Source: Planctomycetota bacterium
Lineage (GTDB): Bacteria > Planctomycetota > Phycisphaerae > WQYP01
Length of the DNA: 64,000 bases
Assembly: GCA_021831565.1 (NCBI GenBank)
Contig: JAKBMM010000011.1
Span: 1-64,000, forward strand
Direction: 5' to 3'
The notes below the pieces were generated by a model that did no database searches, was not told the origin of the DNA, and saw only the letters and a list, made by a program, of their open reading frames with translations. A program made the position numbers and the translations under genes. Positions 29,775-47,971 of the stretch are shown one piece after another; the stretch's first letter is position 1, and every line of letters starts with the position of its first letter.

Positions 29775-30281
29775 ATGTTGAAACAAAATAAAAGCCTCGC
29801 GTCGTTGCTTGCGGATTCCGGCCGGGTCGCCGGCCCCCTGGCGGTTGATGCGGATATGCTCGCCGGCGCCTTCCTTTCGCTGATTCCGCAAATGATGGGA
29901 ACGCTGCGGCGGCATATCAAAGCGATCGGGGGGCGGGAACTTCGCGTGGGACAGTTTCGCATGATGCTGGCCATTTACATGCGGAAAGAGATTTCGATTT
30001 CCCAGACGGCGCAATGTATGGGTTTGACGTTGCCGTCCGCATCCAAAATGGCGGATGATCTGGAGCGGCAGAAACTCATTCGGCGCCAAGCCGACAAAAA
30101 AGATCGCCGGCGGGCGCTGCTCTCGCTCACGCCGCGGGGCGGGGAAGTGCTCCGGAATGTGATGCTCTCCGCCCAAAAACATCTGGCGAAAATATTTGGA
30201 TCGCTCACGCCCATGGAACGGGCCTTTTTATTTTGCGCGGCCCAAACGTTGCGCCCGCTGTTCGAGCCGACCCCAAGATAA
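29775..30281 (+). CDS. MarR-family transcriptional regulator
   Basis: A 168-residue winged-helix regulator with the MarR wing motif KDRRRALLSLTPRGGEVL and the preceding recognition helix TLPSASKMADDLERQKLI. Located immediately upstream of the efflux operon, 24 bp before the membrane fusion gene, so it probably regulates it in response to a small molecule. Confidence 0.88.
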   Translation: MLKQNKSLASLLADSGRVAGPLAVDADMLAGAFLSLIPQMMGTLRRHIKAIGGRELRVGQFRMMLAIYMRKEISISQTAQCMGLTLPSASKMADDLERQKLIRRQADKKDRRRALLSLTPRGGEVLRNVMLSAQKHLAKIFGSLTPMERAFLFCAAQTLRPLFEPTPR

Positions 30282-30305
30282 GGGGCCGTCAATAAATGGG
30301 ATGAC

Positions 30306-31628
30306 ATGATGAAAACCGCAATAAAAGTAATTCTGATCGTTGTGGCGGCGGCTCTGGTGGTTGATTGGGGCTGGACCTGGTGGGCGGGTCGCGCCCCCAC
30401 GCCTGTCGCTTTCAAGACCGCGCCCGTCACGGTGGGAACTCTTCGCGCCACCGTCAGCGCCACCGGCACGCTCGAACCGCGGGACGTGGTGGACGTCGGC
30501 GCGCAAGTCAGCGGAAGGATTGCGTCTTTCGGTTTGGACGCCAGGGGCCATGAGGTTGATTATGACTCACCCGTGAACAAAGGAACCGTTCTGGCGCGGA
30601 TCGACCCGTCGCTTTATGCCGCCGATGTGGTCTCGGCCGGGGCCGCACTGGCCCAGGCGCAGGCCAACGTGGAGGCCGCTAAAGCTAATTTGGAAAAAGA
30701 TCGGGCGCAATATATTGACGCCCGGGCCGATTGGGAGCGGGCCAAGCGGCTGGGGCGAAAATCCGTGGCGCTTTCCGCCAGCCAGTATGACGCCTATCAA
30801 TCAACCTACGATCAGTCCCGGGCCAATGTGGACGTGGGCAAGGCGTCCGTGGACCAGGCCCGCATGGCGGTGCGGGCGGCGGCTGCCGCCCTGGCCCGCG
30901 CCCGGATAACGCTCGGCTACTGCACGATCGCCTCGCCGGTCAAGGGTGTGGTGATTGATAGACGCGTGGAAATAGGCCAGACCGTCGCTTCGAGCTTCAA
31001 TACGCCCAGTCTGTTTCTGATCGCCGAGGACCTGAGTAAAATTCAAGTATGGTTATCTGTTAATGAAGCCGACATCGGCCGCGTGCATGTGGGCGATCCG
31101 GTGACGTTCACGGTTGATACGTTCCCCAACCGGATGTTTCGCGGCGTGGTGTCGCAGGTTCGCCTCAACGCCACCATGGTGCAGAACGTGGTCACGTACA
31201 CGGTGGTGGTGGATACCAATAATCCGGGCGGAAAACTGCTGCCTTATCTGACCGCCCAGGCGGATATCCTGGTGGCCCGGCGCCGGCATGTCATGATGGT
31301 TCCCACCGCGGCCCTGCGCTGGGTGCCGCGCACGGACGAAATTCTTCCCGCGGTTCGGACGGCTCGTCCCCGCGGCGCAACCGCTACCGGTCCCGCGGCC
31401 GGGACGCAACCGCTCCATCGGAACGGAACCGTCTGGTTGCCGGCAAATGGTTACGTTCGCCCGCTCACTGTGACGGTTGGCCTGGCTAACAACTATCAAA
31501 CCGAAATTATTTCCAAAACGCTTAAACCCCCCATGCGCGTGGTGGTCGGAGAACAGAAAAGTCGCACGGCGGGTGCGGCGGGCGGCAATCCATTTATTCC
31601 GCAGCCGTTTGCCCATCATCATAAATAA
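30306..31628 (+). CDS. macA: MacA-like periplasmic adaptor (HlyD/RND membrane fusion protein)
   Basis: A 440-residue adaptor linking an inner-membrane ABC pump to an outer-membrane channel. N-terminal membrane anchor (residues 4-25), biotinyl-lipoyl half-motifs (VDVGAQVSGRI, TIASPVKGVVI), a coiled-coil hairpin (about 110-200, rich in Ala and Gln), then the beta-barrel domain (VHVGDPVTFTVD). The Ala/Thr/Pro-rich segment near 350-375 is longer than usual. Followed by the MacB ATPase. Confidence 0.88.
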   Translation: MMKTAIKVILIVVAAALVVDWGWTWWAGRAPTPVAFKTAPVTVGTLRATVSATGTLEPRDVVDVGAQVSGRIASFGLDARGHEVDYDSPVNKGTVLARIDPSLYAADVVSAGAALAQAQANVEAAKANLEKDRAQYIDARADWERAKRLGRKSVALSASQYDAYQSTYDQSRANVDVGKASVDQARMAVRAAAAALARARITLGYCTIASPVKGVVIDRRVEIGQTVASSFNTPSLFLIAEDLSKIQVWLSVNEADIGRVHVGDPVTFTVDTFPNRMFRGVVSQVRLNATMVQNVVTYTVVVDTNNPGGKLLPYLTAQADILVARRRHVMMVPTAALRWVPRTDEILPAVRTARPRGATATGPAAGTQPLHRNGTVWLPANGYVRPLTVTVGLANNYQTEIISKTLKPPMRVVVGEQKSRTAGAAGGNPFIPQPFAHHHK

Positions 31629-31668
31629 GGGCAAATGTTGATGGGACCGCAGGTTCTGAGAATTGAAC

Positions 31669-32397
31669 ATGGATCTGATTCGCACCGAAAATTTGTATAA
31701 AACCTACCGCCTGGGCGGGGGCGATCTGTCCGTGCTCAAGGGCGTTTCCATGGCTCTTAAGCCCGGCGAACTGGTGGCGTTGATGGGCGTTTCGGGGTCC
31801 GGAAAAACCACGCTGATGAACATCCTGGGCTGCTTGGACCGGCCCACTTCCGGCCGGTACTTTTTTGATGGCGATGAAATTTCGCGCCTCTCGCCCAACC
31901 AGCGGGCGGTGGTGCGCAACAGCAAAATCGGATTCGTTTTCCAGAACTTTAACTTGTTGCCGCGCACTTCAGCGCTGGAGAACGTCCTGTTGCCGACCGC
32001 TTATGCTGACAGCGGCCTGACCACCAGGGATCTTCGCCGGCGCGCCGTGGAGATTCTCCAACGCGTGGGCCTGGGCGATCGGCTGGATCATGAACCGTCG
32101 CAGCTTTCCGGCGGTCAGCAGCAACGCGTGGCCCTCGCCCGGGCGCTGGTGAACAACCCGCGGCTGGTGCTGGCGGATGAACCGACGGGAAATCTGGACT
32201 CGCATACCAGCGAAGAGGTGCTCCAGATGTTTCAGCAGCTCAATTCCGAGCAGGGAATCACTATTCTTCTGGTCACCCACGACGCCAATGTGGCCGCCCA
32301 CGCCCAGCGGGTGATTCATATTCGTGATGGATTGATCGAGGCCGGCTCTGTTGCATCGGCGGCGGGTCACGGGACTCTCGCCACAGGTGACGCATGA
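31669..32397 (+). CDS. MacB-type ABC transporter ATP-binding protein
   Basis: A 242-residue ATPase with Walker A GVSGSGKTT, Q-loop FQNFNLLP, signature LSGGQQQRVALARAL and Walker B LVLADEPTGNLD. Belongs to the LolD/MacB group. I prefer the ATG at 31669 over the TTG at 31663. In E. coli MacB the ATPase and permease are one chain; here they are two genes overlapping by 4 bp. Confidence 0.92.
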   Translation: MDLIRTENLYKTYRLGGGDLSVLKGVSMALKPGELVALMGVSGSGKTTLMNILGCLDRPTSGRYFFDGDEISRLSPNQRAVVRNSKIGFVFQNFNLLPRTSALENVLLPTAYADSGLTTRDLRRRAVEILQRVGLGDRLDHEPSQLSGGQQQRVALARALVNNPRLVLADEPTGNLDSHTSEEVLQMFQQLNSEQGITILLVTHDANVAAHAQRVIHIRDGLIEAGSVASAAGHGTLATGDA

Positions 32398-33758
32398 TAA
32401 AGATCACCACGACACTGAAAACTTCTTTTCGCGCTCTGCGCCGCAATCCGATGCGCTCGGCTCTGACCACACTGGGCATCATTATCGGTATCGCGTCGGT
32501 TATTGCGATGGTGCAGATCGGCGAAGGTTCGTCCGCGGCCATCAAACAGACCATCGCCAACATGGGCGCCAACACGCTGATTGTATTTCCCGGCGCCGCC
32601 GCCAGCGGCGGGGTCACCTTCGGTGGCGGCAGCGCGGTGACGCTGACCTCGCAGGATGCCACGGCCATCGCCCGCGATTGCCCGTCGGTTCAAGCCGCGG
32701 CGCCCCAGGTTCATGCGCGGTTGCAACTAGTTCGCGGAAACCAGAACTGGGTTCCTCAGTTTATCTACGGAACCACGCCGGCGTACCTGAAAATTCGTGA
32801 TTGGCCGATCGCCCAGGGCCGGGCGTTCACCAATGGGGATGTCTTGGGCGCCAACGAGGTTTGCCTGCTGGGCCAGACCGATGTGAAAGAGCTTTTCCCC
32901 AGCGGTAAGGCCGTGGGAAAGACCATCCTGGTTCAGAACGTACCGCTGCGAGTCATCGGCGTGCTGGCCAGAAAAGGCGCCAACATGATGGGAATGGATC
33001 AGGATGACGTGCTGATTTTACCCTGGACCACGTTGAAATATCGTATTTCAGGCACCGCCCTGCAAAATCAGAATCAAAACACTTCGTCTTCCTCGTCCAC
33101 CATTTCGACGAATCAGTTGTATCCGGAGACTTCCCAGAATCTTTATCCGACACCCTCGGCCGTTGAACAGCAGGATCTGCCGCAGCCGGTAAGTTTTCCC
33201 AACGTAAATGCGATCTTTGTGGCGGTTCCAACCGCATCGCAGATTCCCCAGGCCATCAAGGAAATAACCGTGCTGCTGCGGCAGAGGCATCATTTGCAAC
33301 CCGGCCAGCCCAATGATTTTAACATTCGCAACATGGCGGAAATCTCCAACGCCCTCGGATCGACTTCGAAGATGATGACCAATCTACTCACGGGCGTGGC
33401 GCTGATATCGCTGCTGGTCGGTGGCGTGGGCATTATGAACATTATGCTCGTGTCGGTGACGGAGCGTACGCGGGAAATCGGCCTGCGCATGGCGGTGGGC
33501 GCCAAGCCGCGCGACATTTTAAGCCAGTTTATTCTGGAGGCCATCGTGCTGTGTCTTTGCGGTGGTGTCTTGGGCATTCTGGTCGGCCAGGGGCTTTCCA
33601 GCGCGGTCAAAAACCTGCTCGGTTGGCCCATCGCCCTTTCCGTGCCGGCTGTAGTCGCTTCCGTGGCGGTGTCCGCCGGCGTGGGACTTATCTTCGGCTA
33701 TTACCCGGCGTGGAAGGCGTCGCGCCTGGATCCCATTGAGGCGCTGCGATATGAATAA
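32394..33758 (+). CDS. MacB/FtsX-type ABC transporter permease
   Basis: A 454-residue permease: helix near residues 22-43 (ALTTLGIIIGIASVIAM), large periplasmic MacB_PCD domain, then three C-terminal helices with the FtsX signature (LLVGGVGIMNIMLVSVTERT). A Ser/Asn/Gln-rich insertion lies around residues 220-260. The start overlaps the ATPase by ATGA; the 3' end overlaps the TolC-like gene. Confidence 0.9.
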   Translation: MIKITTTLKTSFRALRRNPMRSALTTLGIIIGIASVIAMVQIGEGSSAAIKQTIANMGANTLIVFPGAAASGGVTFGGGSAVTLTSQDATAIARDCPSVQAAAPQVHARLQLVRGNQNWVPQFIYGTTPAYLKIRDWPIAQGRAFTNGDVLGANEVCLLGQTDVKELFPSGKAVGKTILVQNVPLRVIGVLARKGANMMGMDQDDVLILPWTTLKYRISGTALQNQNQNTSSSSSTISTNQLYPETSQNLYPTPSAVEQQDLPQPVSFPNVNAIFVAVPTASQIPQAIKEITVLLRQRHHLQPGQPNDFNIRNMAEISNALGSTSKMMTNLLTGVALISLLVGGVGIMNIMLVSVTERTREIGLRMAVGAKPRDILSQFILEAIVLCLCGGVLGILVGQGLSSAVKNLLGWPIALSVPAVVASVAVSAGVGLIFGYYPAWKASRLDPIEALRYE

Positions 33759-35244
33759 ATCTATTTTGATCCTGGCTCTGCTCTTCGGCGGCTGTTTGCT
33801 CTTCGGCGGCTGCATGGTCGGCCCCAACTATCACCGGCCGAAAATAGCCATGCCGGCGAAGTGGTCCGGTGCGGCGGTGGAAAAAAAGACCGCCGGTCCC
33901 GCGCCGCTGAGCGTTGTGGTCACGCAACCGGCGAATCTGGATACCTGGTGGCGGCGGTTGAAAGATCCCCAACTCACGTCATTGATTCACCGCGCCTTGG
34001 CCGGCAATCTCAATCTGCAACTGGCCGCGGCGCGCGTCCGCCAGGCCCGGGCGGCCATGCAAATCGTCGCGGCGAATCTGGGGCCTTTTGTCACCGCTGG
34101 CGCTTCTTACCAACGCAGCCAGGCCAGCGCGGATCTGACCCGGCCCGGACAAAGCGCGCCACCGCGGGATAATTACACTACGGGTCTCAACGGCACGTGG
34201 AACCTGGACCTGTTCGGCGGCGTGCGGCGCAGCGTACAAGCCGCCCAGGACAGCATCGAAGCGGCCATCGACAATCAGCACAATACCCGCGTGGCGCTGG
34301 TGGGCGAGGTTGCCGCCGATTACATCACCCTGCGCGGCGTGCAGCAGGAAATCCAGCTCGTGCGTCAAACCATCCGCACGCAGCGGCGGACCGTGGACCT
34401 GGCTCGGCTGCAGGTGGGCGCTGGTTTTTCAACCCAGCTCAACATCGCCAACGCCAGAGCTTTGCTGGCCAGTGTGCAGTCCCAGATGCCCCCGTTGCAA
34501 ATCCAGCAGCATCAGCTCATCTACGCCCTGAGCGTATTGCTGGGCAGGTCGCCGGGAGCCTTGGTGCGCCAACTATCTGCGCCGCACGCCATTCCCCCTG
34601 TGCCGCCGCGTGTGCCCATCGGTCTGCCGGCCCAATTGCTGTTGCGCCGGCCCGACGTGCGAAGTGCCGAGCGACAACTGGCCGCCGCCACAGCCCAGAT
34701 CGGCGCGGCCCAAGCGGACCTGTTCCCCCAGATCACCATCAACGGTAATCTGGATTTTGCCGCGCAGAATGCCGCCGACTGGTTCGATTCCCACAGCATT
34801 GCCTGGGGTGTCGGGCCGAGCGTTTCTTGGGCCATTTTCAGTTCCGGGCAAATTCAGGCCAACATCCGCCAGCAGGAATTCTTGCGCGATCAAGCTTACC
34901 TTACGTACCGCCAGACGGTTTTGGACGCGCTCCAGCAGGTGGAAAACGCCTTGGTCGCCTACCGCCAGGAGCAGTTGCACCGCCGCGCCCTGGAAAAGGC
35001 GGTGGTTGAAAATCGTATCGCGGTAAGACTTTCACAAGAGTTGTTCCGCAACGGGCTGACGGATTTCACCAATGTTCTTCTGGCCCAGAACGCGCTATTG
35101 AACTCGCACAGCGCCCTGGTTCAGAGCGACCTGACTTTGTCCAACGACTTGGTGTCGCTGTACGTGGCCCTCGGTGGCGGCTGGAATGCCCCCGTTGCCG
35201 GCGCCCCGGCGACGCGCCCGGCGACCATAACCAAAAATCGGTAA
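33751..35244 (+). CDS. TolC-like outer-membrane efflux lipoprotein (NodT family)
   Basis: A 497-residue outer-membrane factor. Lipoprotein signal with a lipobox at LFGGC (Cys near residue 20), then MVGPNYHRP and NLQLAAARVRQARA typical of NodT. Two repeated coiled-coil halves. I start at the ATG at 33751, which overlaps the permease by 8 bp. Completes a tripartite MacAB-TolC pump. Confidence 0.9.
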   Translation: MNKSILILALLFGGCLLFGGCMVGPNYHRPKIAMPAKWSGAAVEKKTAGPAPLSVVVTQPANLDTWWRRLKDPQLTSLIHRALAGNLNLQLAAARVRQARAAMQIVAANLGPFVTAGASYQRSQASADLTRPGQSAPPRDNYTTGLNGTWNLDLFGGVRRSVQAAQDSIEAAIDNQHNTRVALVGEVAADYITLRGVQQEIQLVRQTIRTQRRTVDLARLQVGAGFSTQLNIANARALLASVQSQMPPLQIQQHQLIYALSVLLGRSPGALVRQLSAPHAIPPVPPRVPIGLPAQLLLRRPDVRSAERQLAAATAQIGAAQADLFPQITINGNLDFAAQNAADWFDSHSIAWGVGPSVSWAIFSSGQIQANIRQQEFLRDQAYLTYRQTVLDALQQVENALVAYRQEQLHRRALEKAVVENRIAVRLSQELFRNGLTDFTNVLLAQNALLNSHSALVQSDLTLSNDLVSLYVALGGGWNAPVAGAPATRPATITKNR

Positions 35245-36971: not shown

Positions 36972-37125
36972 GTAACCGTTCACGCCCCGGATGTTTTTCG
37001 CGTACATCCCGGCGGGCACGGGTTTTCCCGGTGTGCCGGGACCGCCAATCACCGCGCCGCCCCAGCCACGCAGCCGCGTGGATCGCAATCCCGCGGCCGT
37101 TTTCCGCGCCGCCGTGAACGGTTAC
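36972..37125. repeat. 154-bp MITE-like element
   Basis: GTAACCGTTCAC (36972-36983) and GTGAACGGTTAC (37114-37125) are perfect 12-bp terminal inverted repeats. It lies 30 bp upstream of the packaging cassette, on its left border. Confidence 0.85.
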
Positions 37126-37155: not shown

Positions 37156-37695
37156 ATGGATGAAAAACCGCCGGTGATTCTCAGCGTCCCGCTCTCCTCG
37201 GTTCAGCCCGACCCGGCCAATGTGCGGCGTCATGGCGCGCGGAACCTCGCGGCGATCCAGGCGAGCCTGCGCCGCTTCGGCCAGCAGAAGCCGATCGTGG
37301 TGGACGAGCGGGGCGTGATCCGGGCCGGCAACGGAACTTATGAGGCGGCCCGGCAACTTGGCTGGACGCATATCCATATCATTCGCACGCCATTAACCGG
37401 TCCGGACGCCATCGCGTACGCCATCGCCGACAATCGCACGGGCGAGTTGGCGCAATGGGATGAGGAGGCGTTAAACCGCCAGATCGCCGCCCTGGATGGC
37501 GATCTCCTCAGCGCCGCCGGTTTTAACCAGGCCGAACTGGCCAAACTGATGGAAACCGGCCGGAACGAACCCGTGGAGAAAATGCCGCCGGTGATTTATG
37601 AGCTCGCGGTTGGTTGCGCCAACGAGGCGGACCAGAAGCAATTGTTCGAGCGGCTTACCGGCGAGGGACGAACATGCCGGGTGCTGACAATATGA
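37156..37695 (+). CDS. ParB-like nuclease-domain protein
   Basis: A 179-residue protein with a ParB/sulfiredoxin fold N-terminus (PDPANVRRHGARNLAAIQAS, AGNGTYEAARQLGW, AIADNRTGELAQWD). These proteins often accompany phage packaging genes or DNA methyltransferases and need not be partition proteins. ATG at 37156 with GGAG 4 nt upstream. First gene of a four-gene overlapping cassette. Confidence 0.82.
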   Translation: MDEKPPVILSVPLSSVQPDPANVRRHGARNLAAIQASLRRFGQQKPIVVDERGVIRAGNGTYEAARQLGWTHIHIIRTPLTGPDAIAYAIADNRTGELAQWDEEALNRQIAALDGDLLSAAGFNQAELAKLMETGRNEPVEKMPPVIYELAVGCANEADQKQLFERLTGEGRTCRVLTI

Positions 37696-38768
37696 AGATC
37701 GAAGCGGAAGTTTCATGTCCAATCGTGGATTCATTCCGGGTTCGCCAGATCGCGGGGATGTTTGATCTGCCGGTAAATGGCGTAAGTTCTCAGCGGTTCT
37801 CCGTTGAAGTTCCGGGTCTGGATGAGCCTTGGCAAATCGGGCTGATTGTCGGCCCTTCCGGCAGCGGAAAAACCACGATCGCCCGCCAGGCGTTTGGAGC
37901 GGCGCTGCGGGACCCCCCGCCCTGGCCGGCGGACCGGGCGGTGATTGATTGTCTGGGAGACACGGATATCCGCCAAACCACGCGGGTTCTGGCGGCGGTT
38001 GGCTTTTCCAGCCCGCCGGCGTGGCTGCGGCCCTGGCACGTACTTTCCAATGGCGAGAAATTCCGCTGCGACCTGGCCCGGTTGCTGTTGGGAGAAGGGG
38101 GAGAATCAAAAGACAAATTGGCTCTCATGGACGAATTCACCAGTGTGGTGGATCGTACCGTCGCGCGGATTGGTTCGGCGGCTCTGGCCGGGGCGATCCG
38201 CGGTGGAGCCGTCGCCAGGCGTTTTGTGGCGGTCTCTTGTCATTACGACATTGTTCCCTGGCTATGCCCGGATTGGGTGGTGGATATGGCCACGCAATCG
38301 CTGGCAAGGGGGAAGCTTCCGCGACCGTCCATCCGCCTGGAAATCCGGACCTGCGATAAAGGCCTTTGGGCCATGTTCCAGCGTCATCATTATCTGAACG
38401 GCCATCTTCCGTCCTGCGTGCGCTGCCGCGTGGGTTTGGTGGAAAATGAACCGGTGGCGTTCGCGGCGATCGCTCCGGTGGCGGGTTACCGGGGCTATCA
38501 ACGTTTCAGCCGGGTGGTGGTGCTGCCGGATTATCAGGGCATTGGCATCGGCGGAAAATTTCGCGACGCGGTGGCGGCTTTGGAAGCCCCGCGTTGCCGG
38601 CGTTTGAGCCTTGTGACGAGCCATCCGGCGATGATTCGCTCGCTGGCGCACAGCGGGCGATGGCGATTGCGGTCGGTCGGCTTTTCGCACCCGGACGCCG
38701 CCGGACTTAAGGCCAAGCCGGTCGGTTGCCGGAGCCGGCGGGTGTGTTCTTTCGTATGGAAAAACTAA
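37674..38768 (+). CDS. ABC-type ATPase fused to GNAT acetyltransferase
   Basis: A 364-residue two-domain protein. Residues about 40-225: ABC ATPase with Walker A GPSGSGKT (60-67), signature LSNGEKFR (124-131) and Walker B LALMDEFTS (149-157). Residues about 230-360: GNAT fold with the acetyl-CoA loop DYQGIGIGGKF. No membrane segments, so it is not a transporter. GAGGG before 37674 supports that start, which overlaps ParB by 22 bp; 37692 with an ATGA overlap is the alternative. Comparable fusions are seen next to phage terminases; substrate of the acetylation unknown. Confidence 0.82.
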   Translation: MPGADNMKIEAEVSCPIVDSFRVRQIAGMFDLPVNGVSSQRFSVEVPGLDEPWQIGLIVGPSGSGKTTIARQAFGAALRDPPPWPADRAVIDCLGDTDIRQTTRVLAAVGFSSPPAWLRPWHVLSNGEKFRCDLARLLLGEGGESKDKLALMDEFTSVVDRTVARIGSAALAGAIRGGAVARRFVAVSCHYDIVPWLCPDWVVDMATQSLARGKLPRPSIRLEIRTCDKGLWAMFQRHHYLNGHLPSCVRCRVGLVENEPVAFAAIAPVAGYRGYQRFSRVVVLPDYQGIGIGGKFRDAVAALEAPRCRRLSLVTSHPAMIRSLAHSGRWRLRSVGFSHPDAAGLKAKPVGCRSRRVCSFVWKN

Positions 38769-39121
38769 TGAAATCAGCGGAGAGAATAGAATCGCCCGGC
38801 GGCTTAACAACCGCCGTTACTCAAGCGGATGTGGAAAAGCTCGCCGCCGGCGGGGCGCCGGATGAGGACATCGCCGACCTGCTGGACATCAGCCGCTCCC
38901 AGCTCAGGAAACGCTTTGGCCGGGCGCTGCGCCGCGGCCGGGCGTCGCTGCGCGTCAATCTGCGCCGCGGTCAGCTTGTCCTGGCCCTGGGCCGGGCGCC
39001 CGACGTGCGCATGCTGCTGTGGCTGGGGCGGCAATATCTGGGCCAGAAGGATGACTCGGCCCCGCCCGGCGCGCCGCCATTGGAAAAGACATATCTCAAC
39101 GTGGACACAGACAAGGTATGA
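38768..39121 (+). CDS. small-terminase-like helix-turn-helix protein
   Basis: A 117-residue protein with an HTH segment (DEDIADLLDISRSQLRKRFG) like DNA-binding small terminase subunits, followed by an amphipathic region (ALGRAPDVRMLLWLGRQYLG). The last part, LEKTYLNVDTDKV, is acidic and short. Starts in TAATG overlap with the ATPase stop and ends in ATGA overlap with the large terminase, the position expected of TerS. Confidence 0.72.
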   Translation: MKSAERIESPGGLTTAVTQADVEKLAAGGAPDEDIADLLDISRSQLRKRFGRALRRGRASLRVNLRRGQLVLALGRAPDVRMLLWLGRQYLGQKDDSAPPGAPPLEKTYLNVDTDKV

Positions 39122-40548
39122 AAAGCTCCCGGCGATCCCGCCGACACCCGGAACCGGATGCGGCCGCGGAAAAAACACCGGACCGGCTTGATCCCGCACG
39201 CCGGCCCTATCGTCCGTGGGGGGCGGCGGAAAAATTATGTTACGCCCGGGACCGCGAAATTCTTCTGGCGGGACCGGCGGGTACGGGTAAAACCCGCGCC
39301 GCCCTGGAAAAAATCTTCCTGTGCCTCCAGAAATATCCCGCCATGCGCGCCTTGCTGGTCCGAAAAACGCGGGCCAGCCTCACCCAGTCCGTCCTGGTCA
39401 CCCTGGAGGAAAAAGTTTTTCCTCGGGGGCATCCGGCGCTGGGCGGTCCCGGCCGCGGCTACCGGCACGGTTACCGATTGGAAAACGGCGCCGAGTTGGT
39501 GCTCGGCGGGCTGGACAACCCCGATCGGATCATGTCCAGCGAATACGACATGGTGCTGGCCTGCGAAGCCACCGAATTGACCATCGAAGACTGGGAAAAA
39601 CTTCTCACCCGCCTGCGAAACGCCGTGCTGCCCTACCAACAGGCCATCGCCGAATGCAACCCGGCCCATCCCGGCCACTGGCTTAACGCCCGGGCGGACG
39701 CCGGCTTGATGCTGCGTCTCGTGAGCCGGCATCAGGATAATCCGACGCTTTTCGATCGCTCCACCGGACGCTGGACCGGCGCCGGCGAGAACTATTTGCA
39801 TACGTTGCGGCGGCTTTCCGGAGTGCGGCGCAAACGGCTGCTCGACGGCCTCTGGGCGGCGCCGCAGGGGCTGGTTTATGAAATGCTGCCCGATCACGTG
39901 ATTTCCATTCCGCCGCCGCAAGGCCGAACGCTTCGCTGTTACGCCGGCATCGACTGGGGTTGGCGTGATCCCACCGCGGTAGTGGTCGGCCTGTTGTGCC
40001 GGGATTCGTGCCTGTACGTGGTGGACGAGCTTTATGAAAGCCGCCTGCCGCTGGAGGAATTGGCCCGCCGGCTCGACGCGTTGGTGCGGCGATGGGATAT
40101 CGAGATATTTTTTGCCGACCGCTCGCGGCCGGAATTGATAGACCATCTCCGCCGGCGCGACATTGCCTGCCGGCCCGTCCCGGCGCACGGCATTGAATCC
40201 GGTATTGCCATGGTCGAATCGCGCCTGCTGGCGGGGGGGTTGAAGATTTCCGCCCGCTGCCGCCGGCTCATCGACGAAGCGAGCCAATACCAATATGCGG
40301 CCGATGCTCCAACCACGGGCAACTCCCTTCCCATACCCCTTAACGATCACGCCATGGATGCCCTGCGTTACCTGGTGGCGGCGATGGATATGGGCCGCTC
40401 CGATCCCGCCGCGTTCGAGCCGGTTTCTTCCGTCGCCTCCCTCCCGTCGTCCGCGCCGAAAAGTGCCGCAGGAGATTTGCCAAACGCCGCTATGGAGAAT
40501 ACCCGTTCGCACGAGCGATTGAATTTCAACCAAATATGGGGAGAATAA
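39118..40548 (+). CDS. phage-type terminase large subunit
   Basis: A 476-residue terminase. ATPase: Walker A GPAGTGKTR (about 52-60), Walker B around YDMVLACEATE, and ECNPAHP. Nuclease of RNase H fold: GIDWGWRDPTAV, FFADRSRPELID and PLNDHAMDALRYLV supply the three acidic positions. All key residues appear intact, so the motor is likely functional. No portal, protease, capsid or tail gene follows; the next gene is truD after two palindromic repeats. Prophage remnant, gene transfer agent part or domesticated module are all possible. Confidence 0.88.
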   Translation: MKSSRRSRRHPEPDAAAEKTPDRLDPARRPYRPWGAAEKLCYARDREILLAGPAGTGKTRAALEKIFLCLQKYPAMRALLVRKTRASLTQSVLVTLEEKVFPRGHPALGGPGRGYRHGYRLENGAELVLGGLDNPDRIMSSEYDMVLACEATELTIEDWEKLLTRLRNAVLPYQQAIAECNPAHPGHWLNARADAGLMLRLVSRHQDNPTLFDRSTGRWTGAGENYLHTLRRLSGVRRKRLLDGLWAAPQGLVYEMLPDHVISIPPPQGRTLRCYAGIDWGWRDPTAVVVGLLCRDSCLYVVDELYESRLPLEELARRLDALVRRWDIEIFFADRSRPELIDHLRRRDIACRPVPAHGIESGIAMVESRLLAGGLKISARCRRLIDEASQYQYAADAPTTGNSLPIPLNDHAMDALRYLVAAMDMGRSDPAAFEPVSSVASLPSSAPKSAAGDLPNAAMENTRSHERLNFNQIWGE

Positions 40549-40583
40549 AGGTGAATGTAGAGCAAGGAAAACGGTGTTTAACG

Positions 40584-40643
40584 GGTCAGCCTGCTGACCG
40601 TGTCACCAAGGAAAACGGTGTTTAACGGGTCAGCCTGCTGACC
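40584..40643. repeat. two GGTCAGC-N2-GCTGACC palindromes, direct tandem
   Basis: GGTCAGCCTGCTGACC at 40584-40599 and 40628-40643 inside two copies of a 44-bp unit (AAGGAAAACGGTGTTTAACG and onward). The second lies 30 nt upstream of the truD start. The same unit occurs at 52480-52660 in this orientation and inverted in the PEP-CTERM island. Confidence 0.8.
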
Positions 40644-40673
40644 GTGTCACCAATAAAACTCGGCGGTATAGGT

Positions 40674-42115: not shown

Positions 42116-42946
42116 CTATTGTCTACTTTCAACTGTTCTACTTTCTCGCGGCCTTGCCGCGTGCTCTACTATCTTTCTCCGCCGCGTCAGCAATCCCAAC
42201 CCGCCCACCGCCAGCAAGGCCGCCGTAGCCGGTTCGGGGATCGTTTCCGTCGGGAACTCGGTCTTCGTGGTTCCAGTGTATTTCTGCACGTTCGCCTTGG
42301 GCGATAGCGTAAAGTCCACCACATTCGTGAGCGAATAAGCCAACTGCGTTTTGTTGAGCGTTACCAGCGGCGGTGGGGCAAGCGTGAAAGTCTCGGAGTT
42401 GCCGGAGTATGACTCGGAACTTATCCCTGTTGCGGCGACGCCCGTTCCGGATGTCGTGTTCTGTCCGTTATACGGATCGGCGAAGCTCTGCATGGTCATG
42501 GCGAGAGTGCCTTTGGCGAATTCCCCGTCGCCGCTTTGAGCAAGAATCAGGGTGAAGGAGGAATTGGCGCCGGGACCCGTCAGGCCGGTATCTCCCAGGA
42601 GCAGCTCCAGGCTGGCTGTCGATGAGGTATTATTATTGGTCAAGTTGCGCGTGGCGAAGGTGATATAAGACGATGAGGACGTGGCGATGATCGTCGCGTC
42701 TACGGCGCCCGAAAAGTCGCCGAATGAAAAGGTCCCGGAGCTTGGATAGTTAAAAAACGTGGAAGTGGTGTCCACGACGTTCACCAGTGCGCCCCCGTTG
42801 ACGCTGGATTCGGACAGATCAAGTTCAAAATCAGCTTTGGCGCTTGTCGATGGGAGTAATGCGGCACCCGCCGCCAGAGACAGGAAAACGATTCCCGGAA
42901 CCAAAGTTCCCTTAAGGATCAGCCGGAACCTTGCCGCCGTGGTCAT
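42116..42946 (-). CDS. PEP-CTERM sorting-domain protein
   Basis: A 276-residue secreted protein. Signal peptide (1-38) with FLSLAAGAALL, a Ser/Thr/Asn-rich beta passenger, then PEP, a hydrophobic helix and RRRK (IPEPATAALLAVGGLGLLTR). Such tails are recognised by an exosortase, which is not encoded in this window. It is a paralogue of the gene at 47192 (shared SLTNVVD, LLLGDTG and MTMQSFADP). Unlike its siblings it continues 19 residues past RRRK by reading through repeat DNA. Confidence 0.85.
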   Translation of the reverse strand: MTTAARFRLILKGTLVPGIVFLSLAAGAALLPSTSAKADFELDLSESSVNGGALVNVVDTTSTFFNYPSSGTFSFGDFSGAVDATIIATSSSSYITFATRNLTNNNTSSTASLELLLGDTGLTGPGANSSFTLILAQSGDGEFAKGTLAMTMQSFADPYNGQNTTSGTGVAATGISSESYSGNSETFTLAPPPLVTLNKTQLAYSLTNVVDFTLSPKANVQKYTGTTKTEFPTETIPEPATAALLAVGGLGLLTRRRKIVEHAARPRESRTVESRQ

Positions 42947-43439
42947 GATGTGTCTCCTTGTATGGAGAGTGGCGGTATCCCCGCCCGCGGCGCCGCCGCC
43001 GCTCTGCGCTCAACTTTCTACTCTCCCGCTGCTCTACTTTCAACTATATACTTTCTTCCGCGGCGACGCATTAGCAGCCTGTCGGACTTAGGACATGCTT
43101 GCCAGCAATGCTAACGTAGGAGGCATGAGTACGACACGAATGGTAAATGTAGATCGGAACACACCAATGCTGTTGCCCCCGGATCTGCGTGACTTATCCC
43201 GAACATTTCACCGCCGAGACGCAGAGATCGCAGAGGTTTATTTTTATTGGTGACACGGTCAGCAGGCTGACCCTTTAAACATTATCCGCTTCCACCCTCC
43301 GCGTTCCTCTGTTTCCTCCGCGGTGCAAACTCGATTTACCGGACGTTATTTACCGCGGACGCGGAGTACCGCAGAGGTTTATAGCTTGTTAACCATCCGC
43401 GCGGTCTTGGCGTCTTGGCGGTTAATTCCGTGTGAACAC
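42947..43439. other. intergenic region with IS remnant and repeats
   Basis: It contains an IS1182-like transposase start (43072-43198), a GCAGAGG-type repeat (about 43200-43256), the palindrome GGTCAGCAGGCTGACC (43257-43272) and a CCGCGG-type repeat (about 43290-43400). Confidence 0.7.
43072..43198 (+). pseudogene. 5' remnant of an IS1182-like transposase with IS end
   Basis: GTAGGAGGC precedes an ATG at 43125 and the peptide MSTTRMVNVDRNTPMLLPPD resembles the N-terminus of IS1182-family transposases. After about 24 codons the frame runs into repeat DNA and stops at 43251. The upstream GCAGCCTGTCGGACTTAGG is a plausible IS terminal repeat. No other part of the IS was found. Confidence 0.5.
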
Positions 43440-44672
43440 TTACCAACTTTCCACTCTCTTCCGCCTTCGCGCCAGCAGTCCCATTCCGCCCACGGCCAGC
43501 AAAGCCAGCGTGGCCGGTTCGGGTGTGGATAGGCTGAAGATCGTGCCGTAATCGCTGCTTCCGCCATGGAGGGTCATTCCATACAAGGTCGAGCCGGATT
43601 GGATCAGCGAGCCGTAGGGCCATGCGCCATCCGCGGCCCCGCCGGTAAATGAATGCAGGACCTGAAAGCCGGTTCCAATGTCGGCGATGGAAAAGATCGT
43701 GCCATCACCGCCTCCGCCATTGGAGGTCATTCCATACAGGGTCGAACCGGATTGGATCAGCGAGCCGAGGGGACCTGCGCCATCCGCGCCGGTAAATGAA
43801 TGCAGAAGCGTAATAGGTCCCCCGGCGGCAGGGATGGAAAAGATCGTGCCGAAATTGCCGCTTCCGCCGGCGTAGGTCATTCCATACAAAGTCGAGCCGG
43901 ATTGAATCAGCGAGCCCCAGAGGGGATATGCGCCATCCGTGGCCCCGCCGGTAAATGAATGCAGAAGCGTAACGGTTCCCCCGGTGTAAGGTATGGAAAA
44001 GATCGTGCCGAAATTGCTACTTCCGCCGGCGGAGGTCATCCCATACAAGGTCGAGCCGGATTGGATCAGCGAGCCTTGGGGATATTTGCCATACGTGAAT
44101 GAATGCAGAAGAGAATCGGCTCCACCGGTGTCAGGTATGGAAAAGATCGTGCCGGTAGCAGCGCTCCCGCCACTGGTGGTCATCCCATACAAAGTCGAGC
44201 CGAATTGGATCAGCGAGCCGTAGGGATTTTCGCCGTCCGCGGACCCGCCGGTAAATGAATGCACAAGCGTAGGGTTCCCACCACTGGTGCTCTCGGAAAA
44301 GATCGTGCCATAATTGCCGCTTCCGCCAAAGAGGGTCATTCCATACAAGGTCGTACCCGATTGGATCAGCGAGTCCCAGGGATTTGCGCCATCCGCGGTC
44401 CCGCCGGTAAAGGAATGCAGAAGCGTAAAACTATTTCCAGTGTCCGCGATGGAAAAGATCGTGCCTTTATTATTGCCGCTTCCGCCATCGGAGGTCATTC
44501 CATACAAGGTCGAGCCGGATTGGATCAGCGCGCCTCTGGGATATGCGCCATCCGCGGTCCCGCCGGTAAATGAATGCAGCACCTGAAAATTGCTGGCTTG
44601 GGCATAACCGACCCCCGCCGCCAACGCGCCGCATAATCCGGTTGCCAGCATTGCCTTTTGAATCGTTTTCAT
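43440..44672 (-). CDS. PEP-CTERM protein with GSTLYGMT (TIGR03803-type) repeats
   Basis: A 410-residue secreted protein. Signal peptide (1-27), then seven repeats of about 45-50 residues with the pattern LHSFTGG, GSLIQSGSTLYGMT and GTIFSI, probably a beta-propeller. Ends in TPEPATLALLAVGGMGLLAR plus basic tail. I start at the ATG at 44672 with GGGAG upstream; the longer frame starts at 44723. Its last residues (RVESW) are encoded by an intergenic repeat. Confidence 0.87.
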   Translation of the reverse strand: MKTIQKAMLATGLCGALAAGVGYAQASNFQVLHSFTGGTADGAYPRGALIQSGSTLYGMTSDGGSGNNKGTIFSIADTGNSFTLLHSFTGGTADGANPWDSLIQSGTTLYGMTLFGGSGNYGTIFSESTSGGNPTLVHSFTGGSADGENPYGSLIQFGSTLYGMTTSGGSAATGTIFSIPDTGGADSLLHSFTYGKYPQGSLIQSGSTLYGMTSAGGSSNFGTIFSIPYTGGTVTLLHSFTGGATDGAYPLWGSLIQSGSTLYGMTYAGGSGNFGTIFSIPAAGGPITLLHSFTGADGAGPLGSLIQSGSTLYGMTSNGGGGDGTIFSIADIGTGFQVLHSFTGGAADGAWPYGSLIQSGSTLYGMTLHGGSSDYGTIFSLSTPEPATLALLAVGGMGLLARRRKRVESW

Positions 44673-44698
44673 GGTTTTCTCCCTAATGTCCATAGACG

Positions 44699-44712
44699 AC
44701 CAGCAGGCTGGC
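44699..44712 (-). promoter_or_regulatory. leader palindrome before PEP-CTERM gene 43440-44672
   Basis: CCAGCAGGCTGG, part of a slightly decayed copy of the GGCCAGC-N2-GCTGGCC palindrome, 27 nt upstream of the ATG. Confidence 0.6.
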
Positions 44713-44828
44713 CGGTTAACCAAATTTACTTTCCGACTCGCACCGCTCGCGGCTTTGCCGGCGCATTATCCCGAACATTTCACCGCCGAGACGCAGAGGT
44801 CGCAGAGGTTTATTTTTATTGGTGACAC

Positions 44829-44844
44829 GGTCAGCAGGCTGACC
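44829..44844. repeat. GGTCAGC-N2-GCTGACC palindrome
   Basis: GGTCAGCAGGCTGACC within the longer inverted repeat unit, between two PEP-CTERM genes. Confidence 0.8.
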
Positions 44845-44887
44845 CGTTAAACACAGTTTTCCTTGTGCTCTACTTTCTTTCGCCGCA

Positions 44888-44916
44888 GCCCGGCCCGTGC
44901 ATGCCACGGGCCGGGC
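44888..44916 (-). terminator. GC-rich terminator-like hairpin
   Basis: GCCCGGCCCGTG (44888-44899) and CACGGGCCGGGC (44905-44916) form a perfect 12-bp stem with a 5-nt loop just after the gene at 44942. No U-tract, so termination activity is uncertain. Confidence 0.55.
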
Positions 44917-44941
44917 CAAGTTGAATAGCTTGAATAGCCGT

Positions 44942-45949
44942 TCAAGCTATTGCCTTCCGCCTGCGCTTAAGCAGCAATCCCAACCCGCCCACGGCCAGCA
45001 AAGCCAGCGTGGCCGGTTCGGGGACAGTGCCAAGCTGCGCTGACACGTTGTCAATTGCCAGGTTGTTGCCGGCAAAATTAGTTTGCCAGTTGGTGGGCCA
45101 GAGGTAATTGGTGCCACCGAGAGTGGAACTTGGCGCTCCGTTCGGAAAATTAAGTGCCGCGGTAGTCAGAAGACCACCTGTGAGCCCTAGTTGATTGCCT
45201 GAATTATCGTAAACCGCAAAAGCAACACCGGCGGGATCGGTAGTACCATTACCTGTTTTGCTATATGCCAGAGTAAAGGTATACCAGCCGTTCTTGGTGA
45301 TTGTGACAAAAGGCGTGTTTGGCGTGGTGCCGCCGTTTGCATTCACATCTACAGTTCCCGCAGTTGGCACGGTGAATTGAAAATCGGACTCCGTCGCCCA
45401 GTTCGGGGCGCCAGTGGTATCACTTGCGGTTTCGTCGATCTCGAAAGCAGTACCACCACCAGTAGGCGGCGCCCACGCCCCGGTCCCGGTAACAGGCACA
45501 TAAACACTCACAGATTGAGTAAATGCACCGGGATAAGTAGCCATCATGCCGGCGTATGCAGGGGTATCAGTGGAAGTGCCGAATAGGCTGTAACCCGCGT
45601 CGCCTCCATTGTGAATGTTGCCATTGATATTATTTCCAAGCACCGCATAGGAGGAGCTACCGCCGGCGCCGCCAATCAAACCAAGTGGTGATGTGCCATT
45701 ACCACTACCCGGTCCATATCGGGTGATGGAATAAGTGCCGGTACTTGTTGCCACACTTTGGCTCTGACCTATGCCTGTGGCTGTGCCGCTAAACCACCAA
45801 CCGCTTACACCATTGGCTGAATTTTCATATCCTCTGGAATAAGGAACATCCGCCTTGATGATTCCGGCGGACAACAGGGCTATTCCCGCCGCCGCCGCAG
45901 CGCCTAAGCCGAGCATGGTTTTGGTTGAGGATGATTTGTTCTTAAACAT
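44942..45949 (-). CDS. PEP-CTERM protein with MFKNKSSS leader
   Basis: A 335-residue secreted protein. Leader MFKNKSSSTKTMLGLGAAAA shared with the genes at 49618 and 50638; aromatic- and Gly-rich passenger (possible jelly-roll or carbohydrate-binding fold) and C-terminal VPEPATLALLAVGGLGLL with KRRRKAIA. AAGGAG precedes the ATG. Function unknown; predicted surface or matrix protein. Confidence 0.87.
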   Translation of the reverse strand: MFKNKSSSTKTMLGLGAAAAAGIALLSAGIIKADVPYSRGYENSANGVSGWWFSGTATGIGQSQSVATSTGTYSITRYGPGSGNGTSPLGLIGGAGGSSSYAVLGNNINGNIHNGGDAGYSLFGTSTDTPAYAGMMATYPGAFTQSVSVYVPVTGTGAWAPPTGGGTAFEIDETASDTTGAPNWATESDFQFTVPTAGTVDVNANGGTTPNTPFVTITKNGWYTFTLAYSKTGNGTTDPAGVAFAVYDNSGNQLGLTGGLLTTAALNFPNGAPSSTLGGTNYLWPTNWQTNFAGNNLAIDNVSAQLGTVPEPATLALLAVGGLGLLLKRRRKAIA

Positions 45950-46356
45950 GGTTTACTCCTTAATGTCCATAGATGGCCAGCAGGCTGGCCGGTTTACCAA
46001 ACCGACTCGCAACACGCGGGTCGGAACTTTCCTGTGGCAGGCTTTCTCGCCTGCGTTTGTTTTCGCGGGCACTCGCGCCCGCCTATCCCATAGCCGCTCC
46101 GCTGTGCCTCCTTTCGCGGCTTTGCCGCCGCTCTACTTTCAACTTTCTACTCTCTTTCGCCGGCGCATTAGCCCCAACATTTCACCGCCGAGGTTGTTGA
46201 AATGAAAGACCATATAGAGATTCTTTCCCACAACACCTCAGATACAGACTCTTTGCCATCTCATCATTTCTATCCATTTACTCCACCGTGGCCTCAGCGC
46301 ACTCTGCGCCTCTGCGGTGCAAACTCCGGGTTAGCGGCTTTGCCGCCGCTCTACTT
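45950..46356. other. intergenic repeats upstream of the gene at 44942
   Basis: It contains the leader palindrome (45975-45990), a GCGGCTTTGCCGC hairpin repeat (about 46112-46124), the block shared with 35266-35440 (46176-46325) and a second GCGGCTTTGCCGC copy (about 46334). No gene was seen. Confidence 0.65.
45975..45990 (-). promoter_or_regulatory. leader palindrome before PEP-CTERM gene 44942-45949
   Basis: GGCCAGCAGGCTGGCC, 26 nt upstream of the ATG and about 10 nt upstream of the ribosome-binding site. Confidence 0.65.
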
Positions 46357-47070
46357 TCAACTCTCTACTCTCTTCCGCCGCCGCATTAGCAATCCGAGTC
46401 CGCCCAGAGCCAGCAGCGCCAGCGTGGCCGGTTCGGGGGCGGTGGTTGTATAGCTGAGGGTGACATTCGATCCGCCCGCCAGGCTCAGTTCCAGGGTATT
46501 ACCCATGGAAAAGGGATTGCTTCCATTGGGACTGAACCCAGCCGTTTGCTGAACCAGTGTCTGCGTTTGGGGAAAACCGCCGCTTGAATAGGTCACGGTG
46601 TATGAAGGCGTCTGCACCGGCGGCGGCGTGGTCAGAGAGAATTGGCCGTCGGCCGAGTCGGCGCCGCTGACATAAGTGGCGGAGTCGCCGCTGGTGGCGG
46701 CATTGAACGTCACGCTGCCGGAACCGGCCAGGGTCATGGAGGAGCCGACCGGCGAGAAACCGGTATCCCATAAATTGATCGCCAATATATCGGGCCCCAC
46801 TGTCGTGTCAGTATTCTTTACGCCCACACTAATGGCACTGATCTGCGGCGTATTCGAAGAGCCGGAATTGGATGTGGCGTCGTAGATGGTGATGTCAAAT
46901 GTGCCGACCGTAACATTCGACTGATTAATAACGCCGCCACTGCCCGTGAAACTGGTAATTGGGCCGCCGTTGGCTTCGAACTGCGCCACAAAGCTCGCCT
47001 GGGCCGCCGAGGCGGCCAAACTCATCGCTGCCGCGGCGAGCACCATAGATCCGAAAATCTTGAATTGCAT
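46357..47070 (-). CDS. PEP-CTERM sorting-domain protein
   Basis: A 237-residue secreted protein: signal peptide (1-25, ending ASAAQA), beta-rich passenger with a TVGPDILAINLWDTG segment, and APEPATLALLALGGLGLLMR plus RRKRVES. I start at the ATG at 47070 preceded by AGGGAG; 47094 is an alternative. The end VES comes from a shared repeat. Confidence 0.85.
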   Translation of the reverse strand: MQFKIFGSMVLAAAAMSLAASAAQASFVAQFEANGGPITSFTGSGGVINQSNVTVGTFDITIYDATSNSGSSNTPQISAISVGVKNTDTTVGPDILAINLWDTGFSPVGSSMTLAGSGSVTFNAATSGDSATYVSGADSADGQFSLTTPPPVQTPSYTVTYSSGGFPQTQTLVQQTAGFSPNGSNPFSMGNTLELSLAGGSNVTLSYTTTAPEPATLALLALGGLGLLMRRRKRVES

Positions 47071-47116
47071 AAAAAACTCCCTTGTAAAAAGCATTGTTAT
47101 TTTTTCTTGGTGACAC

Positions 47117-47132
47117 GGTCAGCAGGCTGACC
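47117..47132. repeat. GGTCAGC-N2-GCTGACC palindrome
   Basis: GGTCAGCAGGCTGACC, 47 nt upstream of the gene at 46357 and downstream of the gene at 47192. Confidence 0.8.
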
Positions 47133-47191
47133 CGTTAAACATCGTTTTCCTTGTGCTCTACTTTCTCGCGGCTTTGCCGCGTGCTCTACTT

Positions 47192-47971
47192 TCAACTCTC
47201 TACTCTCTTTCTCCGCCGCGCCAGCAATCCGAGTCCGCCCACAGCCAGCAACGCCAGTGATGCCGGTTCGGGGATTGTTCCCGACGGGTTCTCGGTCAGC
47301 GTGGTCCCGTTGTAGTTGAGCTGGCTTACATTTATGTTTGCCCCGGATGATAGCGTGATGTCCACCACATTCGTGAGCGAATAGTCCAACTGTGTTTTGG
47401 TCAGCGTCGCCGTGGTCGGATTCGATAAAAGCGTGAAAGATACGGGGCTGGTGGTGTTGTTTGTCAATGATAACACCGAGCTTACCGGTGTCGCGGCGAC
47501 GCCCGATCCGGATGTCGTGTTCTGGCCGTTATGCGGATCGGCGAAGCTCTGCATGGTCATGGTGAGAGTGCCGTTGGTGAGTTCACCGCCGCCGCTTTGG
47601 GCGAGTTCTAGAGTGCCGGTATTTGTGGGGCCGGGTCCCGTAAAACCTGTATCTCCCAGGAGCAGTTCTATGGTGGCTGGGTTTGGGCCCGTGTTATTAT
47701 TGGTCAGGTTGATCGTGGCGAAGGTGATGTAACCCGACGACGCGCCGGCGGCGGGATCATTGGTTGCCGCGCTTACGGATCCCGAAAAACCGCCGAATCC
47801 ACCGGTGGGGGTGGAATAGGACAAAGAGGTGGACGGAGTACTTGCTACGTTCACCAGTGTGCCCCCGCTGGGCACGGCCAGATCAAGTTCAAAAGCAGCT
47901 TTCGCGCTGTTCGGCAGAAGCAACGCCGCGCCCGCCGCCAGGCATAAAATTTTCACTGTGATGTTTGGCAT
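47192..47971 (-). CDS. PEP-CTERM sorting-domain protein
   Basis: A 259-residue secreted protein with signal peptide (1-25), Asn/Thr-rich passenger and IPEPASLALLAVGGLGLLAR with RRKRVES. Paralogue of the gene at 42116 through most of its length. AAGGAG precedes the ATG. Function unknown. Confidence 0.87.
   Translation of the reverse strand: MPNITVKILCLAAGAALLLPNSAKAAFELDLAVPSGGTLVNVASTPSTSLSYSTPTGGFGGFSGSVSAATNDPAAGASSGYITFATINLTNNNTGPNPATIELLLGDTGFTGPGPTNTGTLELAQSGGGELTNGTLTMTMQSFADPHNGQNTTSGSGVAATPVSSVLSLTNNTTSPVSFTLLSNPTTATLTKTQLDYSLTNVVDITLSSGANINVSQLNYNGTTLTENPSGTIPEPASLALLAVGGLGLLARRRKRVES

Follow-up and report, generated by a model that had tools for sequence, protein, structure and literature searches.

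Six attributes have been listed for gene transfer agents (GTAs): particle proteins of caudoviricete origin, an endogenised and often multi-locus genome, mostly vertical inheritance with co-diversification, a genome not fully packaged in one particle, mostly random host DNA inside, and delivery to other cells (PMC9662315). GTAs tend to be multi-locus, and homology or synteny does not as yet allow new ones to be located definitively (review PMC11841831). BhGTA (VSH-1) of Brachyspira (Brachygtaviriformidae) has a divided genome, keeps a single-copy terL outside its structural cluster and co-diversifies with its host genus (PMC9662315); FpGTA of Faecalibacterium occupies two operons about 125 kb apart (PMC12946183). 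The present study concerns a four-gene DNA packaging cassette at positions 37156-40548 of a 64,000-nucleotide stretch from a Planctomycetota bacterium (contig JAKBMM010000011.1; the whole stretch is referred to as the window). An earlier note on this DNA had taken the cassette for an orphan without structural genes, to be explained either by a GTA-like system with its remaining genes elsewhere or by a domesticated DNA-translocating and acetylating defence or mobilisation module. The findings below make it likely that the cassette is the packaging module of a GTA-like system split into about five small operons among host genes.

A phage-type packaging operon

The four genes are co-directional (+ strand) and overlap. 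The first (37156..37695, +), which opens what we call module A, specifies a 179-aa ParB-like protein with a ParB_N domain (phrog_620, 3.2e-37; PF02195, 3.6e-4). It is followed by a fusion of an ABC-type ATPase with a GNAT acetyltransferase domain (37674..38768, +; phrog_11143, i.e., PHROG 11143, 1.5e-88), by a helix-turn-helix protein resembling the small terminase subunit, TerS (38768..39121, +; 117 aa from ATG 38768; phrog_309, terminase small subunit, 9.5e-6; HTH_23, 1.3e-3), and by an intact large terminase subunit, TerL, of 476 aa (39118..40548, +; PF04466, 4.1e-9; phrog_2, 6.7e-33; TIGR01547, 1.1e-12). The ABC-GNAT protein measures 364 aa from ATG 37674 and 358 aa from ATG 37692; P-loop (GPSGSGKT), signature (LSNGEK) and Walker B (LALMDE) motifs can be read in its sequence. 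The 22-bp overlap with the ParB-like gene, recorded in the earlier note, holds only for the ATG at 37674, which is preceded by a Shine-Dalgarno-like GAGGGA; the start at 37692 leaves an overlap of 4 bp. The remaining junctions, TAATG between ABC-GNAT and TerS (38766-38770) and ATGA between TerS and TerL (39118-39121), are as described there, as is the gene 3′ of TerL, truD (PF01142, 3.3e-99), with no structural genes adjoining. The intactness claimed for TerL is likewise borne out. The protein retains a Walker A motif (GPAGTGKT), a Walker-B-like ACEATE and the RNase H-like nuclease aspartates D279, D334, D410 and D414, and an alignment of 14 family sequences (51-62% identical to the window TerL) shows little or no variation at any of these catalytic residues. 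This TerL is the sole TerL match in the source genome (G000).

Judged from its genes, the cassette goes back to a packaging operon of phages, because the ABC-GNAT protein matches PHROG 11143, its viral homologues reach 59% identity (range approximately 37-59%) and the same gene order recurs in IMG/VR contigs. The phage homologues sit upstream of terminase genes. In contigs L023 and L028 the ABC-GNAT gene lies between a ParB-like gene and TerL, with the portal gene following in both; L028 also carries capsid, head-tail adaptor and E1, a tail-type gene, downstream. Since phages carry both genes directly upstream of terminase, the ParB-like and ABC-GNAT proteins probably help to recruit or prepare DNA for packaging, their exact role being a guess. 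In the host family (sampled as 28 genomes of 11 genera, the named members being Planctomycetota/Phycisphaerae metagenome-assembled genomes, MAGs), ParB-like orthologues 55-62% identical lie directly 5′ of ABC-GNAT in at least 10 genomes, ABC-GNAT orthologues occur in most genomes, and the place of the TerS-like gene between ABC-GNAT and TerL is conserved. Split terminases with swapped domain order were seen in IMG/VR contigs L424-L450 and L474, where nuclease (~170-190 aa) and ATPase (~300 aa) are separate genes with the nuclease first (e.g., L425:4264-4833 and 6919-7821).

Particle genes elsewhere in the genome

Genome-wide searches of G000 with portal, capsid, head-tail adaptor and E1 queries gave matches on other contigs and none in the window. 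Hence, the cassette is an orphan locally; the genome as a whole carries portal, protease, capsid, connector and tail-type genes, including the capsid that the earlier note had proposed to look for. The genome has one portal and one HK97 capsid gene, both on contig C58; a phrog_442-type head-tail adaptor is encoded on C36, and E1 lies where C58 ends. Reading the neighbourhoods of these genes identified the protease, the small capsid-module genes, the glycosyltransferase and the head completion, terminator-like and tail-tube genes; D2, D3, D4, C2, C3, C4 and the glycosyltransferase were found in G000 by tblastn. Besides module A in the window, the set comprises module B, portal and S78 prohead protease (C58:29168-31508; portal PF04860, 5.9e-37; protease PF04586, 1.7e-7), module C, HK97 capsid, small genes and glycosyltransferase (C58:12148-20169; capsid PF05065, 2.7e-42), module D, head-tail adaptor, head completion, tail terminator-like gene and putative tail tube, D4 (C36:23435-25601), and module E with E1 (C58:53111 to the end of the contig). 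The five modules are spread over contigs C36, C50 and C58 among host genes; on C58, about 41 kb separate the ends of the stretch from module C to module E, and modules A and D lie on other contigs. Genes in between are of host type or unrelated: rpsB, floA, a gene for an MFS transporter, a sensor kinase gene and a type III restriction-modification pair.

Two features of C58 were noted in passing. The restriction-modification pair (N6_N4_Mtase, ResIII) is inserted together with an FRG-domain gene between the capsid and portal modules (C58 22159-28031; L238:2159-8031). A 678-aa protein encoded between the small capsid-module genes and the glycosyltransferase (C58:15285-17321; L237) has a weak match to a hydrolase (phrog_16653) and looks like a beta-helical tailspike, a putative assignment; among the loci read, it occurs in the host genus only.

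Cassette and particle modules are present in nearly every genome of eight of the 11 sampled genera, essentially as a single copy (head-tail adaptor in 23 of 28 genomes, E1 in 24 of 28). Window-type TerL, adaptor and E1 are all absent from G008, G010 and G011, which form one clade, a three-genus sister clade; most other gaps correspond to incomplete MAGs. Portals and capsids were found in G008 and G010, but their scores are far from those of the family set, as would be expected of ordinary prophages. Thus, allowing for incomplete MAGs, window-type cassette and virion genes are present or absent together in the host family. A pattern scan of one genome per species (84,980 species) found relatives of the window TerL only in MAGs of this kind and in one distant contiguous TerL-portal-capsid locus (L368, 49%). 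Module neighbours differ between genera; modules A and B are neighbours in G013, G018 and G012, and in G018 modules A, B and D fall within ~13 kb.

This joint occurrence speaks against the proposal that the four genes form a stand-alone DNA-translocating and acetylating module for defence or mobilisation, independent of capsid genes. In phages, moreover, portal and capsid genes follow immediately after the same set, and a PADLOC search of the cassette returned weak, generic matches to ATPase and ParB domains, the best (1.6e-13) to a methyltransferase model, which fall short of a defence system. What lends the proposal some substance is a second, distant ParB/ABC/GNAT/TerS/TerL locus, widespread in Phycisphaerae and described below, since no HK97-type portal was detected in 17 of the 20 carriers tested and such a gene set may thus work without one. 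For the window cassette we consider a stand-alone function extremely improbable, and the defence module of the earlier note is not needed to account for it.

Vertical inheritance and purifying selection

Trees were built for RpoB, capsid, TerL, portal, head-tail adaptor and glycosyltransferase. Every genus is monophyletic in each of them, and g1 and g9 pair as sister genera in those of RpoB, portal, adaptor and glycosyltransferase. A tree from ten concatenated proteins (3342 columns) has 13 of 16 splits in common with RpoB, as compared to a mean of 0.2 and a maximum of 3 for 2000 random trees. In six genomes representing three genera, the portal gene and rpsB are 3-10 kb apart. The scattered set has been inherited together with the host across seven genera. 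The ratio of nonsynonymous to synonymous substitution rates (dN/dS) is 0.04-0.35 for every component, so that all are under purifying selection, and rows with internal stops were very rare in the searches. The earlier note had held that a complete prophage nearby or a neutrally evolving terminase would speak against its view; the locus holds no contiguous prophage, and dN/dS of TerL in relatives is 0.07-0.22. The first of its two explanations, with particle genes elsewhere in the same genome and co-diversifying with the host, is strongly supported.

Contiguous relatives with ordinary gene order exist among phages and prophages (L257, L259, L028), and L257, L259/L400 and L368 can serve as prophage-type outgroups. 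Two rare copies within the family, G018:C66 (L257) and G020:C147 (L259/L400), are contiguous and show the order TerL (G018:C66 only), portal, protease, capsid, glycosyltransferase, adaptor, completion, a tape-measure-sized gene, E1 and E2; in G020:C147 (L259) a gene with a weak integrase-like SAM-like domain (0.0073) follows, and then host genes. Such copies fall outside the family set in the trees, except for L259, which is inside it in the glycosyltransferase tree, and for L258, whose long branch is unplaced in the capsid tree.

One could suppose from these relatives that the modules are decaying remnants, left by independent prophages of one phage group that integrated in each lineage and were then shuffled and lost. 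The genes are indeed of phage type, no integrase or lysogeny gene was seen, as one would expect of remnants, and the varying module neighbours would fit. However, the gene trees follow the host tree both at the genus level and within genera, the copy number is essentially one per genome, the portal has kept its place close to rpsB in three genera, and the rare prophage-type copies group outside in most trees. Congruence and purifying selection speak strongly against simple decay, which we regard as very unlikely. An active temperate prophage, contiguous and equipped with integrase and lysogeny genes, does not describe the set either: host genes separate the modules and no integrase was seen among the annotated genes near them, although not every neighbouring gene was searched.

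Selection on the components also bears on what the particles do. They might be domesticated for a task other than gene transfer, such as killing, signalling or nutrient storage, with or without DNA inside; sequence cannot tell the contents of a head, and the conserved glycosyltransferase and the putative tailspike could serve surface interaction. However, selection maintains terminase, portal and capsid alike, which argues for DNA packaging, and these are exactly the genes that tailocins lose. Another such task thus appears unlikely. The tailocin model itself, with tail kept and capsid and terminase lost, was rejected on the same grounds.

A second cassette in the Phycisphaerae

The second cassette, as pieced together from several genomes (loci L193, L196, L219, L227 and L232; e.g., L196:4374-10337), combines an S24 repressor gene and an antiterminator- or sigma-like gene with genes for ABC ATPase, GNAT, ParB-like and TerS-like proteins and a Terminase_6-type TerL that carries a conserved Cys motif. 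Strong matches to this TerL were counted in over 100 genomes out of the 198 sampled from Phycisphaerae; a looser cut-off gives 132 genomes, a figure that includes window-type TerLs. Among the 20 carriers tested, those with an HK97-type portal (phrog_12) were G008, G010 and G105. Within the host family, the second cassette is found in exactly G008, G010 and G011, that is, in the genomes without the GTA set. Its viral relatives gave no structural partner usable as a query.

For the pattern of the second cassette we have no explanation that we would trust. A tentative idea is that Phycisphaerae domesticated a ParB/ABC/GNAT/TerS/TerL cassette twice. The older one, common throughout much of the class and situated beside the S24 repressor and the antiterminator- or sigma-like gene, would act without HK97-type portal and capsid or with particle genes of an unrecognised kind, and the scattered GTA of phage descent, with the window cassette as its packaging module, would have taken its place in one clade of the host family. 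The reciprocal pattern of the two cassettes poses a testable question, how DNA-packaging machinery is replaced.

Repeats and neighbouring genes of the window

The cassette is flanked by repeats that had been proposed as its borders. Both are real; both are general genome repeats, and their role as borders was rejected. The upstream element (36972..37125, 154 bp, 30 bp 5′ of the ParB start) resembles a miniature inverted-repeat transposable element (MITE), with perfect 13-bp terminal inverted repeats (36972-36984/37113-37125). It is not specific to the cassette, given some 50 whole or partial copies across the genome. One copy lies ~190 bp from the portal gene, just upstream of its module (C58:31699-31848); under uniform placement, a copy within 250 bp of two of five modules has a probability of ~5e-4, a rough figure that ignores intergenic preference. 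The downstream element (40563..40650, 3′ of TerL) is a tandem pair of 44-bp palindromic repeats of the repetitive extragenic palindromic (REP) type whose core was found 10 times in the window. Upstream of the cassette, a tripartite efflux operon (29775-35244) with MarR regulator, MacA/MacB-like and outer-membrane efflux genes is conserved in G001. Downstream, several consecutive PEP-CTERM-type surface or secreted proteins are encoded at 42116-47971, with REP-like repeats in between. A 560-595 aa open reading frame that follows TerL in one genus was rejected as a tape measure, its C-terminal end being PEP-CTERM-like.

Discussion

Our preferred interpretation is that the scattered modules probably constitute a vertically inherited, GTA-like system, known here from its genes. 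Upon induction, the modules would be expressed together and HK97-type heads would assemble on the portal; TerS and TerL would load fragments of the host chromosome into the heads, and relatives would receive this DNA from tailed particles. We call the system GTA-like, and not a proven GTA, because three of the six listed attributes were found and the packaging and delivery of random host DNA are matters for experiment. The three are caudoviricete-derived particle proteins (portal, S78 protease, HK97 capsid, TerL and adaptor), an endogenised, multi-locus genome (five modules among host genes such as rpsB, floA and the MFS gene) and co-diversification (13 of 16 RpoB splits and all genera monophyletic). 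Whether the genome is too large for one particle would depend on the size of the head, the stretch from module C to module E alone covering about 41 kb of C58.

Several observations weigh against this interpretation. Rank correlation with RpoB distance is weak for the genes of module A (0.04-0.47) and stronger for the others (0.44-0.96); Pearson correlation is at least 0.69 for all but E1, some rows of which were probably mis-picked. The genomes are MAGs, and in some of them module A spans contigs or ABC-GNAT and TerL lie apart (G012, G020). Tape-measure, baseplate, lysis and dedicated regulatory genes were not found for the scattered set, and the prophage tape-measure protein, used as query, matches only itself, with no relatives in other genomes of the family. 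For D4 and E1, fold models failed (predicted local distance difference test, pLDDT, 36 and 40, respectively) and neither was used; consequently, D4 is assigned as a tail tube by position and look. Finally, the putative particles could have a purpose other than DNA transfer.

A search of the open-access literature found no description of a GTA in Planctomycetota. If our interpretation is true, this would be the first that we are able to find there, GTAs being firmly known from few lineages. With head, portal, connector and packaging genes in separate operons, the output of standard prophage-finding programs would be fragments or "orphan terminases". Single copy, host-congruent trees and purifying selection, applied module by module, offer a recipe for finding scattered GTAs.

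The RcGTA-type GTAs of alphaproteobacteria (Rhodogtaviriformidae) have their head-tail genes in one cluster and a Terminase_6-type TerL. Here, sub-assemblies form separate operons, TerL is of the PBSX/Terminase_3 type, the packaging operon includes ParB and ABC-GNAT genes, and the host is a planctomycete. Features in common are HK97-type head genes, portal, prohead protease and TerL, vertical inheritance, purifying selection and more than one locus (PMC9662315). Caudoviricete phages with the ParB/ABC-GNAT/TerS/TerL/portal order (L023 and L028, and Gordonia phage Jace for ParB/ABC-GNAT) have homologous genes in contiguous genomes, whereas the present set is scattered and inherited with the chromosome. 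The divided genome, the separate single-copy terL and the co-diversification are shared with BhGTA, which differs in having one 16.3-kb structural cluster and almost no recognisable phage homologues; the planctomycete system occupies about five loci, its phage homologues are clear, and contiguous prophages are available as outgroups. FpGTA, also in more than one operon, belongs to gut Firmicutes, has podovirus-like morphology and has had its particle DNA sequenced, while the planctomycete system is described from its genes. Neither the two operons of FpGTA nor the divided genome of BhGTA goes as far as the spread over about five sub-assembly operons described here, the most extreme case found.

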